A stretch of 64,000 nucleotides of DNA, taken from contig NZ_BMDC01000002.1 in NCBI RefSeq assembly GCF_014635585.1, positions 1 through 64,000 of the forward strand, written 5' to 3'. Both the position numbers and the translations under genes were made by a program. The notes under the pieces were generated by a model, which saw only the letters and a program-made list of their open reading frames with translations, did not search any database and was not told where the DNA came from. Positions 28,837-60,419 of this stretch are shown one piece after another. Source of the stretch: Rothia aerolata. GTDB lineage: Bacteria > Actinomycetota > Actinomycetes > Actinomycetales > Micrococcaceae. Each line of letters starts with the position of its first letter. The first letter of the stretch is position 1.

Positions 28837-29003
28837 TATTCACTCCATATTTCTTGTGAGTTGTACGTAACCAGCCTAGCGGTTAAAAAGCATACTGTCT
28901 TGTTTGCCTTCGGGTTTCTGCGCAAAAAACGAAAGATTTTGGTTGGTCTGAACCCGGTGCCTATACTGGAGACATTCGCCCTTTGCTCGGGCGATGTATG
29001 AAA

Positions 29004-29084
29004 CGACAGGGGAGCACCTAGGTGCTGAGAGTGCGCAAGCAGACCCTCGAACCTGATCCGGCTAATACCGGCGTGAGGAAGTCG
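29004..29084 (+). promoter_or_regulatory. TPP riboswitch (THI element) of the ykoEDC operon
   Basis: The conserved pieces are in order: ACAGGGGAGC, GCTGAGAGTGCG, GACCCTCGAACCTGATCCGG and TAATACCGGCGTGAGGAAG, closed by CGAC (29004-29007)/GTCG (29081-29084) as P1. The expression platform downstream is a hairpin CCTTCCA/TGGAAGG (29131-29137/29145-29151) followed by TTTTG. Its right arm contains the YkoE ribosome site GGAAGG, so thiamine pyrophosphate could act by sequestering the site, by termination, or both. Confidence 0.95.
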
Positions 29085-29158
29085 AGTTCTCGTGAACTGT
29101 GCTGTGCCGCCAGTCAATGGCGCAGGCTCCCCTTCCACATTCTTTGGAAGGTTTTGTT

Positions 29159-34447: not shown

Positions 34448-35032
34448 TTATTTTGACTGTAAAGTAACTTCACCCTCGTTGAAGAAGACCAGGTCTACTT
34501 TTTGGTCTAGGCGGCGCTGGGCTAGCAGTTCTTCCTCCTGCTCGGCCCAGGTGTTCCACCAGGGGCGGTAGGTCTCCCCGTCGCGGGTCAGTGCCCGGTG
34601 CTTGCGGGTGAGTGTCGGCGCCTCAACCCAGCAGGAGAAGTCTACGCTTCCGGCGGAGGCCCCGACCCCTTCAATAATGAGGACGCTTCGCGGCAGGACG
34701 GCGCGGATGTGGGGCCCGGTGGGGCGGCTGGTCTCCCAGTCCCAGCCGGTGAAGGTCAGCTGCCCACCGGCTTTTAGCTCGGCTGAGTTTTTCTCCCAGG
34801 CACTCACCGCCTGAGACAGGCCCCACCAGCCCTGGTAGGTATCTTCCAGATGAAAGGTGGCAGTCTGAAATCCCGCAGCTTTGAGAAAGTCTGCCAGCTG
34901 CCCTGCCAGCGTGGTCTTTCCCGCGCCAGATCGCCCGTCCAGAGCAAGCAGAAAGGGGCGGGCGGGGTAGAGAGTAACCTGATTTTCCAGTCGCTGCATC
35001 AGGGTGCTGCGGCTATCTACGCTCTGGGGCAT
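34448..35032 (-). CDS. P-loop nucleoside/nucleotide kinase-like protein
   Basis: 194 residues. Walker A LALDGRSGAGKTTLAGQL near residue 30, followed by ATFHLEDTYQGWWGL and VLIIEGVGA as in uridine-kinase-like enzymes, and an Arg/Trp-rich lid region (RDGETYRPWWNTW). The substrate is not assigned; the compact size and the lid fit actinobacterial proteins annotated as uridine kinase-like or (d)CMP kinase-like. The start overlaps the stop of the phosphatase gene by one base, so both form a two-gene operon. Confidence 0.7.
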   Translation of the reverse strand: MPQSVDSRSTLMQRLENQVTLYPARPFLLALDGRSGAGKTTLAGQLADFLKAAGFQTATFHLEDTYQGWWGLSQAVSAWEKNSAELKAGGQLTFTGWDWETSRPTGPHIRAVLPRSVLIIEGVGASAGSVDFSCWVEAPTLTRKHRALTRDGETYRPWWNTWAEQEEELLAQRRLDQKVDLVFFNEGEVTLQSK

Positions 35033-35514
35033 TAGCCCTGCTTCCGGGCAAAATCAATAACCCCGTCTACCGCATCGCGGATCATAGTGAAAGTATCGTA
35101 GAAGTCCTGCTGGTCGCCGTACCAGGGGTCATAGATTCCCAGCGAGTCCTGCGGCTGGTCGGCTACCGCCGGGTCAAACTCGCGCATCAGGTGAACCTTG
35201 GCGCGGTCGTCGTCATTCTTCGCCATGCGCATCAGGGCGCGGTAGTGGTTGAGGTCCATAGCCAGCAGCAGGTCGTGGGAGTCAAAATCTGACCGCTTGA
35301 ACTGCCGAGCTCGGTGGGAGTCCGTATTAATGTTGAGCTCTCTGAGCACCTTGGCGGCGCGGCGGTCAATGGGGTTGCCCTCTTCTTCATTGGAGATGCC
35401 AGAGGAATCAACCTCAACCTCCACGCCCGCTTTATGGGCGGCGTCCTTAATCAAAAACTCTCCCATGGGGGAGCGGCAGATATTGCCGGTGCAGACGGTC
35501 ATAATCTTCAGCAC
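35032..35514 (-). CDS. Low-molecular-weight protein-tyrosine phosphatase
   Basis: 160 residues. The N-terminal VCTGNICRSPMGE is the catalytic P-loop (C-x5-R-S), and DPWYGDQQDF near the C-terminus gives the general-acid Asp. Only the short Rossmann-like domain is present, and there is no arsenate-reductase Cys pair. Homologues (PtpA-like) dephosphorylate protein tyrosines and some are secreted by pathogens. The promoter must lie in the 35515-35600 stretch. First gene of the pair with the kinase. Confidence 0.92.
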   Translation of the reverse strand: MLKIMTVCTGNICRSPMGEFLIKDAAHKAGVEVEVDSSGISNEEEGNPIDRRAAKVLRELNINTDSHRARQFKRSDFDSHDLLLAMDLNHYRALMRMAKNDDDRAKVHLMREFDPAVADQPQDSLGIYDPWYGDQQDFYDTFTMIRDAVDGVIDFARKQG

Positions 35515-35649
35515 GGCTGGTTCCTTTCACATAGTGTAGGGATACAATATCGAGGGAGCATTCAGCTTACTCTCAAGGTGCCTCGTAACTTAAGTTTTAA
35601 CTGAGAATAAGTATGCGAAAGCACTGCAAACCTGTGTATAGTCTTAGCG

Positions 35650-35792
35650 GTACACACATTTACTCAAAGCGTTGGGACTGTCCCTCGATAGTCACGGTAT
35701 CAGCAAACCGTTAAACGCTTCAGATTGCTTCGACGCTAGCTCTCGAAGAACGACTTGAAAACCCCGCAACCGGAGCAGGTTGCGGGGTTTCT
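35650..35792 (+). ncRNA. Candidate structured small RNA
   Basis: TATAGT (35637-35642) could be a -10, and a strong terminator lies 120 bp on, with no ORF of note between. The sequence folds well: AAGCGTT (35667-35673) pairs with AACGCTT (35714-35720) and encloses GGGA/TCCC (35674-35677/35681-35684) and ACGGT/ACCGT (35694-35698/35707-35711), a three-way junction. Next come CTTCGA/TCGAAG (35728-35733/35743-35748) and the terminator stem. It matches no RNA family I know (not tmRNA, SRP RNA, RNase P or 6C). The limits are approximate. Confidence 0.5.
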
Positions 35793-35793
35793 T
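35759..35793 (+). terminator. Strong terminator of the candidate RNA
   Basis: AAACCCCGCAACC (35759-35771) pairs with GGTTGCGGGGTTT (35778-35790), a perfect 13-bp stem with loop GGAGCA, followed by CTT. AAAA on the left also makes it usable from the other strand. Confidence 0.85.
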
Positions 35794-35840
35794 GCGTTGA
35801 GTGTCAATTTTCTGCCTGGTCCCTCGCCCCTGAGCCTCGG

Positions 35841-35904
35841 TTTGTACAGGGTTATCTCCGATATACAGCGGTATCTCTGGACAGAGGAGACAAGCCTGTA
35901 CAAA
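35841..35904. repeat. Inverted-repeat element C, copy 1
   Basis: TTTGTACAGGGTTATCTCC (35841-35859) and GGAGACAAGCCTGTACAAA (35886-35904) are inverted with two mismatches. The 26-bp core between them reads GATATACAGCGGTATC then TCTGGACAGA. Flanks CCTCGG on the left and ATTG on the right are shared with copy 2. Confidence 0.85.
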
Positions 35905-35955
35905 ATTGCTGATTCGTGTACTGAGACCGAACCTAGGCCACTCGGGGGCTGCTGA

Positions 35956-36153
35956 CTAACTGTTCTGATTGGTCTTGTCGAAGGAAAACACCAGAACAAA
36001 TGAAAGGCCCAAAGTTAGAAGGGCTCTGGGAAAATCGAAAAATACATGAAAATAAGGCTCAGACCTGCCAAAAGACACGAAGGCAATGAGAATTGCAAAG
36101 CATAAGAAGACCTCTATAAATTTCTTGACTAGAGACAAGTTCCTACCGTTCAT
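35956..36153 (-). CDS. Possible small membrane protein, unknown
   Basis: 65 residues from the inner ATG at 36153, preceded by AGGGGAAGC on the minus strand. Two hydrophobic segments (VFLCFAILIAFVSF and ALLTLGLSFVLVF) flank a short aromatic loop. The codon use is more AT-rich than the surrounding genes and no family is recognised. It lies between two repeat elements. It could be a real two-helix membrane protein, or a chance ORF in a low-GC island. Confidence 0.35.
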   Translation of the reverse strand: MNGRNLSLVKKFIEVFLCFAILIAFVSFGRSEPYFHVFFDFPRALLTLGLSFVLVFSFDKTNQNS

Positions 36154-36250: not shown

Positions 36251-36313
36251 CGCCGAGTGGTGGATTTTAGGCTTAAAATCGCAAGATTTAAGCCTAAAAT
36301 CCACCACTCGGCG
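36251..36313. repeat. Long near-perfect palindrome
   Basis: The left arm 36251-36280 (starting CGCCGAGTGGTGGATTTTAG) and right arm 36285-36313 (ending CCACCACTCGGCG) are complementary apart from one extra A, with a GCAA loop. No T-run follows on either side. Only one copy is seen in this window. Confidence 0.9.
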
Positions 36314-36369
36314 GTTAAAGGTTGCCCAAGCGATGATGGAACGGGGTCTCCTTGTAGCCATAGTCTCGG

Positions 36370-36435
36370 TTTTGTACAGGGTTGTCTCGTCTGTACAGAG
36401 ATACCGGTGTATAGCGGAGACAACCCTGTACAAAA
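36370..36435. repeat. Inverted-repeat element C, copy 2 (core inverted relative to copy 1)
   Basis: TTTTGTACAGGGTTGTCTC (36370-36388) and GAGACAACCCTGTACAAAA (36417-36435) form a perfect 19-bp inverted repeat. The core between them, with CAGAGATACCGGTGTATAGC, is the reverse complement of the copy 1 core (with a few changes), while the outer flanks (CTCGG left, TTGG right) keep the same orientation. Confidence 0.87.
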
Positions 36436-36504
36436 TTGGCGGGGGACTCTCGGAAGATCCTCGCAGGAAAGAGCCGGGGATCGTTGAGCATGTGCAGGCA
36501 CTAA

Positions 36505-36648: not shown

Positions 36649-36669
36649 GTTGAGTTTATCTGACTCAAG
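36649..36669. promoter_or_regulatory. HAIR operator 2 (HspR) at the dnaK promoter
   Basis: GTTGAGT-N7-ACTCAAG matches HAIR in 13 of 14 positions. TTGACA (36674-36679) directly behind it is a likely -35, with TTGTAT or GAGACT near 36695-36706 as a weak -10. HspR bound here would block polymerase. HspR is encoded at the end of the same cluster, giving the known DnaK-HspR feedback. Confidence 0.85.
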
Positions 36670-36818
36670 TCTGTTGACAGATTCCAAAAAAGTGAGAGAC
36701 TTGTATCGAAGCGAAACGCAAAAGCTGACACAGGCAGGCTCAAGTTTGAGCTTGCCGGTCAGACAAGAAACCGGTTTCGCAATGGTTCTAAAAGAAGAAA
36801 CTCTAAGGAGAAAAACAC

Positions 36819-38675
36819 ATGGCACGTGCAGTAGGTATTGACCTCGGTACTACCAACTCAGTTGTATCAGTTCTTGAAGGCGGCGAGCCCACCGTTATCG
36901 CTAACGCTGAAGGCGCCCGCACCACCCCCTCAGTCGTAGCTTTCTCAAAGGACGGCGAGGTGCTGGTGGGTGACGTTGCAAAGCGTCAGGCTGTCACCAA
37001 CGTTGACCGCACCATCGCTTCCGTCAAGCGTCACATGGGCACCAACTGGACCACCGACATCGATGGTAAGAAGTACACCCCCCAGGAAATCTCAGCCCGC
37101 ACCCTGATGAAGCTCAAGGGCGACGCTGAGGCATTCCTGAACGACACCGTGACCGACGCCGTCATCACCGTTCCCGCCTACTTCAATGACGCCGAGCGCC
37201 AGGCAACCAAGGAGGCCGGCGAGATCGCAGGTCTGAACGTTCTGCGTATCGTCAACGAGCCCACCGCGGCAGCTCTGGCCTACGGCCTGGAAAAGGGCAA
37301 CGAAGACGAATTGATTCTGGTATTCGACCTCGGTGGCGGTACTTTCGACGTCTCCCTGCTTGAGGTAGCAAAGGATGAAGACGGCTTCTCCACCATTCAG
37401 GTTCGCGCAACCGCTGGTGACAACCGCCTGGGTGGCGACGACTGGGACCAGCGCATTGTTGACTGGTTGCTGGAGCAGGTCAAGTCCAAGACCGGTGCAG
37501 ACCTGTCTAAGGACAAGATTGCTCTGCAGCGTCTGCGTGAGGCAGCTGAGCAGGCTAAGAAGGAACTCTCTTCTGCAACCTCCACCAACATCTCGCTGCA
37601 GTACCTCTCGGTAACCCCCGAGGGCCCCATCCACCTGGATGAGAAGCTCTCCCGCGCTAAGTTCCAGGACATGACTTCTGACCTGCTCGAGCGCACCAAG
37701 AAGCCCTTCAACGATGTCATCAAGGAAGCCGGTATCTCCGTCTCCGACATCGCTCACGTGATCCTGGTGGGTGGCTCCACCCGTATGCCCGCAGTGGCAG
37801 ACGTGGTCAAAGATCTGACCAACGGTCGCGAAGCAAACAAGGGTGTTAACCCCGATGAGGTTGTGGCTATGGGTGCAGCTGTTCAGGCTGGCGTGCTCAA
37901 GGGCGACCGCAAGGACGTTCTGCTGATCGACGTCACCCCCCTCTCCCTCGGTATCGAGACCAAGGGCGGCGTGATGACCAAGCTGATCGAGCGCAACACC
38001 GCAATCCCCACCAAGCGCTCGGAGACCTTCACCACCGCTGAGGACAACCAGCCCTCCGTGTCTATCCAGGTCTTCCAGGGCGAGCGCGAGTTCACCCGCG
38101 ACAACAAGTCCCTGGGCAACTTCGAGCTGACCGGTATCGCACCCGCCCCCCGCGGTGTGCCCCAGATTGAAGTTACCTTCGACATCGACGCCAACGGTAT
38201 CGTGCACGTCTCCGCAAAGGACAAGGGCACCGGCACCGAGCAGTCCATGACCATCACCGGCGGTACCTCCCTCTCCAAGGAAGACATCGACCGCATGGTC
38301 AAGGACGCCGAGGCTCACGCTGAGCAGGATAAGGCTCGCCGCGAGGCAGCTGAGACCCGCAACCAGGCTGAAACCTCCGCCTACTCCATCGAGAAGCTGA
38401 TCAAGGACAACGAAGACAAGCTGCCCGAGGACGTCAAGTCCGAGGTTCAGGCAGATGTTGACGCCGTCAAGGCAGCGCTCGAGGGCGATGACGACGACGC
38501 CGTGAAGTCAGCTTTCGAGAAGCTGCAGGCTTCCCAGACCAAGCTGGGCGAGGCAATCTACGCTTCTGCCCAGGCTGAGGCAGCCAACGGCGCAGGTGAG
38601 TCCGGCGAGAACAACGACGATGACTTCGTAGACGCAGAGGTTATCGACGACGAAGACAACAACGAAAAGAAGTAA
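36819..38675 (+). CDS. dnaK: Chaperone protein DnaK (Hsp70)
   Basis: 618 residues. ATPase domain with GIDLGTTNS at the N-terminus, [11 protein letters not shown] (about 170) and [10 protein letters not shown] (about 310); linker and substrate domain from [18 protein letters not shown]; the C-terminal tail is acidic with EVIDDEDNN. Preceded by CTAAGGAG. It folds nascent and stress-denatured proteins with GrpE and DnaJ and acts as HspR co-repressor in actinobacteria. First gene of the cluster; grpE begins two bases after its stop. Confidence 0.98.
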
Positions 38676-59441: not shown

Positions 59442-59532
59442 TCGCCGCCGTGAAACAAACCCTTAATATGGACGGCAGACAGGGGCGCCCCTGGAAAGTC
59501 CCGGGGGAGGAACCTAAGATGGTGAGCGTTAC

Positions 59533-59613
59533 CCACGGGGTGCTGGTTTGGTATAAACCGGCTGAGAACACACCCGTATATACCTGATCTCGATAATGCG
59601 AGCGGAGGAATGG
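59533..59613 (+). promoter_or_regulatory. TPP riboswitch (THI element) of the thiM operon
   Basis: Conserved blocks: CACGGGGTGCTGG, CCGGCTGAGAACACACCCGT, TACCTGATCTCGATAATGCG and AGCGGAGGAATGG. The closing CCA/TGG pair places the right P1 strand at 59611-59613, two bases before the thiM ATG. The ribosome site GGAGG (59604-59608) lies inside the aptamer core, so ligand binding would hide it directly: a compact translational switch, with no separate terminator needed. Confidence 0.93.
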
Positions 59614-59615
59614 AT

Positions 59616-60419
59616 ATGACGCTCTCTCTGTCTACCCAAGTCATTGAACCCTGGCACAACCTGCAAGAAAATACACCTCTGGTGCAGTGCATCACCAACA
59701 CCGTGGTGCAGTCTTTTACAGCCAACATTTTGTTAGCGGCGGGGGCCTCGCCCGCCATGGTAGATATTCCGGGGGAGTCCGCTGATTTTGCCCGGGTTGC
59801 ATCGGGGCTACTCATCAACTTGGGCACCATCAACGTGAGCCACCAGCTCTCTATTCCCGAGGCAGCCCACGCAGCTTTCGAGGCCGGTACCCCCTGGGTT
59901 CTTGACCCGGTGGCTATCGGTGCCCTGAAAACCCGCACCCGTATCGCCCACGAGCTGCTACAGTACCGACCCACCGCCATTCGCGGTAATGCCTCAGAGA
60001 TTATTGCCCTGGCAGGTGGCGAAGGAGGCAGGGGCACAGATGCCACGGCCTCCGTCGAAGCAGCTGCGGAAAGTGCTACGCAGCTTGCCCGCGAATACGG
60101 TTCGGTAGTGGCTGTCTCGGGCCCCGTCGATTTGATTACCGACGGTGAGACCAGCATCGAGTGCGCCAACGGCCACGAGATTTTGACCAGGGTCACGGGC
60201 GCGGGTTGCTCCCTGGGTGCCTGCGTAGCCGCCTACCTTTCAACCCATGAGAACCCGCTGATTGCCACCGCCGCAGCCCACGCTACTTTTGAAGTCGCGG
60301 CAGAGAAGGCCCAGGCTAAATCTCAGGGCCCGGGTACCTTCGCGGTGAACCTGCTCGATGAGCTCTCCCTGCTCACCGCCGATTCCCTGCAAGAATCGGT
60401 CAAGATCAGCCAGCGCTAG
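59616..60419 (+). CDS. thiM: Hydroxyethylthiazole kinase ThiM
   Basis: 267 residues from ATG 59616; ATG 59610 is one base from GGAGG and cannot be the start. It phosphorylates 4-methyl-5-hydroxyethylthiazole for thiamine salvage. Family motifs: CITNTVVQSFTANILLAAGASPAM (in parts), WVLDPVAIG, AIRGNASEIIALAG, and the catalytic Cys in VTGAGCSLGACVAAY. First gene of thiM-thiE-thiD/tenA under the TPP riboswitch. Confidence 0.96.
   Translation: MTLSLSTQVIEPWHNLQENTPLVQCITNTVVQSFTANILLAAGASPAMVDIPGESADFARVASGLLINLGTINVSHQLSIPEAAHAAFEAGTPWVLDPVAIGALKTRTRIAHELLQYRPTAIRGNASEIIALAGGEGGRGTDATASVEAAAESATQLAREYGSVVAVSGPVDLITDGETSIECANGHEILTRVTGAGCSLGACVAAYLSTHENPLIATAAAHATFEVAAEKAQAKSQGPGTFAVNLLDELSLLTADSLQESVKISQR

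Follow-up and report, generated by a model that had tools for sequence, protein, structure and literature searches.

The mycobacterial small RNA F6, with its proposed seed, is a precedent for seed pairing in a bacterium without Hfq (PMC8583896). 6S RNA (mostly 150-210 nt) and Ms1 (about 300 nt) both form an extended hairpin interrupted at its centre by an open bubble (PMC4191392), and the target RNAs of ANTAR proteins carry two hexaloop hairpins close to the regulated gene (PMC8164766). For the genus Rothia itself, predicted ncRNAs are described in the oral species R. dentocariosa (PMC7160235). In the DNA analysed here, a 64,000-nucleotide stretch of Rothia aerolata (hereafter the window), a structured RNA of about 145 nt was predicted on the plus strand at 35649-35793. 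Like F6, it would be an intergenic small RNA driven by a promoter of its own, for which seed pairing with the 5′ region of mRNAs is proposed; it differs from F6 in having a three-way junction scaffold, and no sequence relation connects the two. 6S RNA and Ms1 are likewise single, stable intergenic RNAs that end in a terminator, but a 6S RNA was not supported: the predicted fold is a three-way junction plus hairpins within about 145 nt, and Rfam returned no 6S match. Its adjoining hairpins recall ANTAR targets, and in one lineage P3 bears the hexaloop ACAGCA, with A1 and G4; however, the P2 and P3 loops in the window have 4 and 8 nt, and P2 has no hexaloop in most homologues, so that an ANTAR target was not supported either.

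Searching Rfam 15 at the gathering threshold returned nothing at the RNA locus, and the best sub-threshold match of a permissive search scored 17.8 bits versus the 45 needed (E 0.16). Six homologous loci likewise gave no Rfam match on the RNA, and ARAGORN and Rfam together placed no tRNA at the locus. An earlier note on this DNA, which had recognised no known small RNA family here, thus agreed with the Rfam check. No report of the locus was found in the openly available papers, including what is accessible on the R. dentocariosa ncRNAs. The locus is a new RNA family of a familiar kind, namely the intergenic sRNA genes that have a promoter and a terminator of their own and a conserved structure.

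Promoter and boundaries of the predicted RNA

The predicted transcript was delimited by a promoter, conserved RNA elements and a terminator in 18 genomes of the genus. Its promoter box, TGTGTATAGT (35633-35642, plus strand), was exact in all 18 homologues and contains, at 35637-35642, the -10-like TATAGT that the earlier note had singled out; no matching -35 element was conserved among the homologues. The expected RNA start, 35649/35650, lies 7-8 nt 3′ of this hexamer, and invariant bases resumed there in 17 of the 18 homologues. The window's genome has four copies of the box; apart from that of the RNA, they lie immediately before the genes for tRNA-Ala, tRNA-Met and tRNA-Leu. Since all boxes elsewhere in this genome precede tRNA genes, the RNA's promoter belongs, judging by sequence, to the tRNA-type, stable-RNA class; the RNA thus shares an identical promoter box with the tRNA genes of the genus while not being a tRNA itself. 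Over four genomes, 12 of the 16 sites not belonging to this RNA preceded a tRNA. An operator formed by the inverted repeat TGTGTA-N12-TACACA across the promoter was also considered. This reading was weakened because the left arm is part of the tRNA-type box, where it occurs without the right arm, and because the right arm is altered in one homologue (G023). Separately, a TGTGTATAGT box without a tRNA downstream was observed in G029 (L152, near position 1500), possibly a second small RNA or an mRNA promoter.

At its 5′ end the RNA carries GUACACACA (35650-35658, plus strand), predicted to be unpaired and a candidate seed; indeed, it was unpaired in the minimum free energy fold of the window's copy. 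After the variable spacer, GTACACACA begins at 35650, and about 8 further unpaired bases precede the junction. The 3′ boundary is set by an intrinsic terminator (35759-35793, plus strand) with a 13-bp stem (35759-35771/35778-35790), a 6-nt loop and a TTTCTT end, which was not listed by a simple terminator scan, probably because its short T run lies in part within the stem. No plus-strand ORF of at least 80 aa was found inside the RNA, in keeping with the earlier description of an intergenic stretch devoid of ORFs; a minus-strand ORF (35736-35999) overlaps the RNA 3′ end and looks spurious.

Predicted fold, covariation and distribution

In the predicted plus-strand fold, a closed three-way junction (35667-35720) is formed by P1 (AAGCGUU/AACGCUU, 35667-35673/35714-35720), P2 (GACUGUC/GAUAGUC, 35676-35682/35687-35693) and P3 (ACGGU/ACCGU, 35694-35698/35707-35711), the last capped by the loop AUCAGCAA (35699-35706). 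It is followed by the P4 hairpin (35728-35748; CUUCGA/UCGAAG, arms 35728-35733/35743-35748) and then by the terminator. The closed multi-branch structure, further hairpin and 13-bp terminator stem described in the earlier note were therefore all recovered. The 151-nt region folded at -54.9 kcal/mol (z = -3.8), and none of 200 shuffles was equally stable. Without the terminator, the P1-P3 domain still reached z = -3.2; of 500 shuffles of this domain, 2 were equally stable and just 29 formed any multi-branch loop. Across the 18 homologues z-scores ranged from -1.1 to -5.0, and the Stouffer score over 11 representatives, with related lineages treated as independent, was -9.4.

Pairing was then compared among lineages. 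A MAFFT alignment of all homologues misaligned the helices, hence their arms were aligned by hand. In these arms 98-100% of cells were paired for the five helices, versus 53-86% with shuffled 3′ partners, the hand alignment having followed the predicted folds, which favours pairing. In P1, P2, P3 and the terminator, both sides had changed at every counted pair. The P1 arms read AAGCG/CGCUU in the window, GAGCC/GGCUC in G029, GAGUC/GACUC in G004 and GGUGU/ACACC in G032; the P2 arms likewise differed in sequence between lineages with pairing kept, and P4 in the other main lineage was UCUUGAG/UUCGAGA. Within the close-relative alignment A3 alone, covariation was weak, with two pairs changed on both sides, a level reached by 144 of 500 shuffles. 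The three-way junction was the predicted fold at the same place in 15 of 18 homologues, the exceptions being G025, G017 and G023. The predicted RNA structure appears to be under selection. G023 kept the 5′ ACACACA, P1, P4 and the terminator and had no P2 or P3, which points to the junction being a scaffold. At the 5′ end, GUACACACA was identical in 17 of 18 homologues, following a variable 6-nt spacer, and G023 had UAACACACA, in which the first two bases differ.

Homologues were found in 18 of the 35 genomes searched in the genus, which was judged to be Rothia by contig names. In 17 of them, BLAST with 201 bases retrieved the promoter together with the 5′ block, each copy running on into the structured RNA and terminator, and a covariance model with a relaxed pattern added the eighteenth, G023. 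Scanning about 85,000 species genomes with an exact pattern gave 15 records, from Rothia only, among them R. amarae, R. nasimurium, R. nasisuis and R. endophytica; viral contigs held no copy. The other genera of the family, with about 270 genomes, yielded no homologue. Within the family the pattern was run on 298 genomes and the covariance model R1 on 200, where R1 had matches in the genus only; R1 was built from one lineage, misses the window's own copy and lineage, and could also miss distant relatives. The sole relaxed-pattern match outside the genus, in G288, lies inside a coding sequence and was dismissed as chance. Thus, of the proposal that covariation be sought in Rothia and in other Micrococcaceae, the first part was confirmed, compensating changes having kept the stems paired in related genomes, and the second found no RNA in other genera. 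On the ptp tree two changes were needed, fitting one gain and one loss, the loss falling in G007/G030. The origin of the RNA is probably single, and the RNA is best read as specific to one Rothia clade. An independent RNA gene very probably exists at this locus.

Possible modes of action

The reading that we favour, with some confidence, is a free-standing small non-coding RNA gene restricted to a Rothia clade and probably acting in trans through its unpaired 5′ end. Its own tRNA-type promoter would start transcription at about 35649/35650, and the RNA would stop at the intrinsic terminator near 35793. It would then fold into a scaffold of three-way junction, P4 and terminator lying 3′ of the unpaired, near-invariant GUACACACA. 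This end would serve as a seed pairing in trans with target mRNAs without Hfq, blocking or exposing their translation starts. Because it is near-invariant while the stems vary, the unpaired 5′ end is the likeliest functional part of the RNA, which is probably regulatory; we infer base pairing in trans as its mechanism, at odds that are even or slightly better.

The target searches named no conserved mRNA partner. The 9-nt 5′ end had perfect complements at 9 sites in G000 (the window's species), 5 in G029 and 4 in G032, the RNA locus being included in each count, and no gene or start site was common to the three; perfect 12-nt complements revealed no shared target either. This outcome counts in favour of a protein-binding RNA, the main rival of the trans-acting seed, in which single-stranded ACACA (at the 5′ end and, in most species, in the terminator loop) or the CAGCA of the P3 loop captures an RNA-binding protein or enzyme, as do 6S, Ms1 and CsrB-type RNAs. 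Such capture is also consistent with a second CACACA-type motif in the terminator loop and with CAGCA in the P3 loop, each present in 16 of 18 homologues. However, the window's own species and G025 lack the terminator-loop motif, and CAGCA is found neither in G025 nor in G023, which has no P2 or P3 at all; since each is absent from some homologues, neither is essential. Protein capture is rather unlikely, and the trans-acting seed is the likelier of the two. More speculative still is the idea that Rothia has here a regulatory RNA of a new class, linked to growth and made from a tRNA-type promoter. Its repeated unpaired ACACA would bind an as yet undescribed RNA-binding protein or a set of mRNAs, replacing an Hfq-dependent network, and the junction would be only a replaceable stabilising scaffold. 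As a separate observation, an intergenic repeat (AGGTGTAC...AACTTGTGTGTACCTGAGG) lies near position 1500 of each of L166, L176 and L177 in the window's genome and holds exact complements of the RNA 5′ end; it occurs only in G000 among the three genomes and is likely due to chance.

Relation to dnaK and ptp

The RNA is flanked by ptp (35032-35514, minus strand; motif VCTGNICRSP), a divergent low-molecular-weight protein tyrosine phosphatase gene outside the RNA, and by dnaK, which starts at 36819, about 1 kb downstream. A cis-acting leader or attenuator of either gene, in which the terminator would be the off state, might be suspected because in G000, G029, G004, G025, G016 and G023 the RNA precedes dnaK and shares its strand. 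However, dnaK has a separate promoter at 36650-36679 (plus strand), read from the sequence as HAIR-like TTGAGT-N7-ACTCAAG followed by TTGACA, which we take to be a HAIR/HspR, heat-shock-type site. Furthermore, the RNA is conserved in R. nasimurium-type genomes, where the gene after it is another one and the downstream flank examined contains no dnaK. In several outgroup species ptp adjoins dnaK and the RNA is absent. As for ptp, it lies on the opposite strand, divergent in most homologous loci, and was not found in the RNA-bearing G025. The 5′ end paired with ptp codons or leader, or with the dnaK leader, no better than its shuffled versions did. A leader function is thus very improbable. The downstream gene varies by species, so the link to dnaK is positional only, and the RNA, as far as its sequence context tells, is independent of the dnaK unit. 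The placing upstream of the dnaK locus in the earlier note is qualified in that the RNA does not belong to the dnaK unit, dnaK having its own promoter and, in many species, not being the gene that follows the RNA. Least credible of all is a short mRNA for a small peptide, since the ATG-led frame of about 45 codons that runs through the RNA in several R. nasimurium-type homologues is broken in other species by early stops and by indels not in threes, is absent as an ATG frame from the window's copy and has no ribosome-binding site seen before it, and conservation tracks paired positions, not codons; a conserved reading frame was thus rejected.

Other elements were noted in the window. A palindromic repeat about 70 bp long (TTTTGTACAGGGTT...CCTGTACAAAA) is present twice, at 35836-35908 and 36365-36438, and this REP- or MITE-like family had 35 matches at about 20 places in the genome. 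Between the RNA and dnaK, a near-perfect inverted repeat with about 26 bases per arm (ccgagtggtggattttaggcttaaa...) occupies 36253-36311, and two TPP riboswitches are found on the plus strand at 28998-29097 and 59526-59627.

The locus illustrates that a real RNA gene missing from Rfam is detectable by reading a single intergenic region without tools. Few small RNAs have been described in Rothia, and this predicted RNA, with its clear promoter, boundaries and structure, its probable single origin and its natural loss lines (G007 and G030), lends itself readily to tests of how RNAs regulate genes in actinobacteria.
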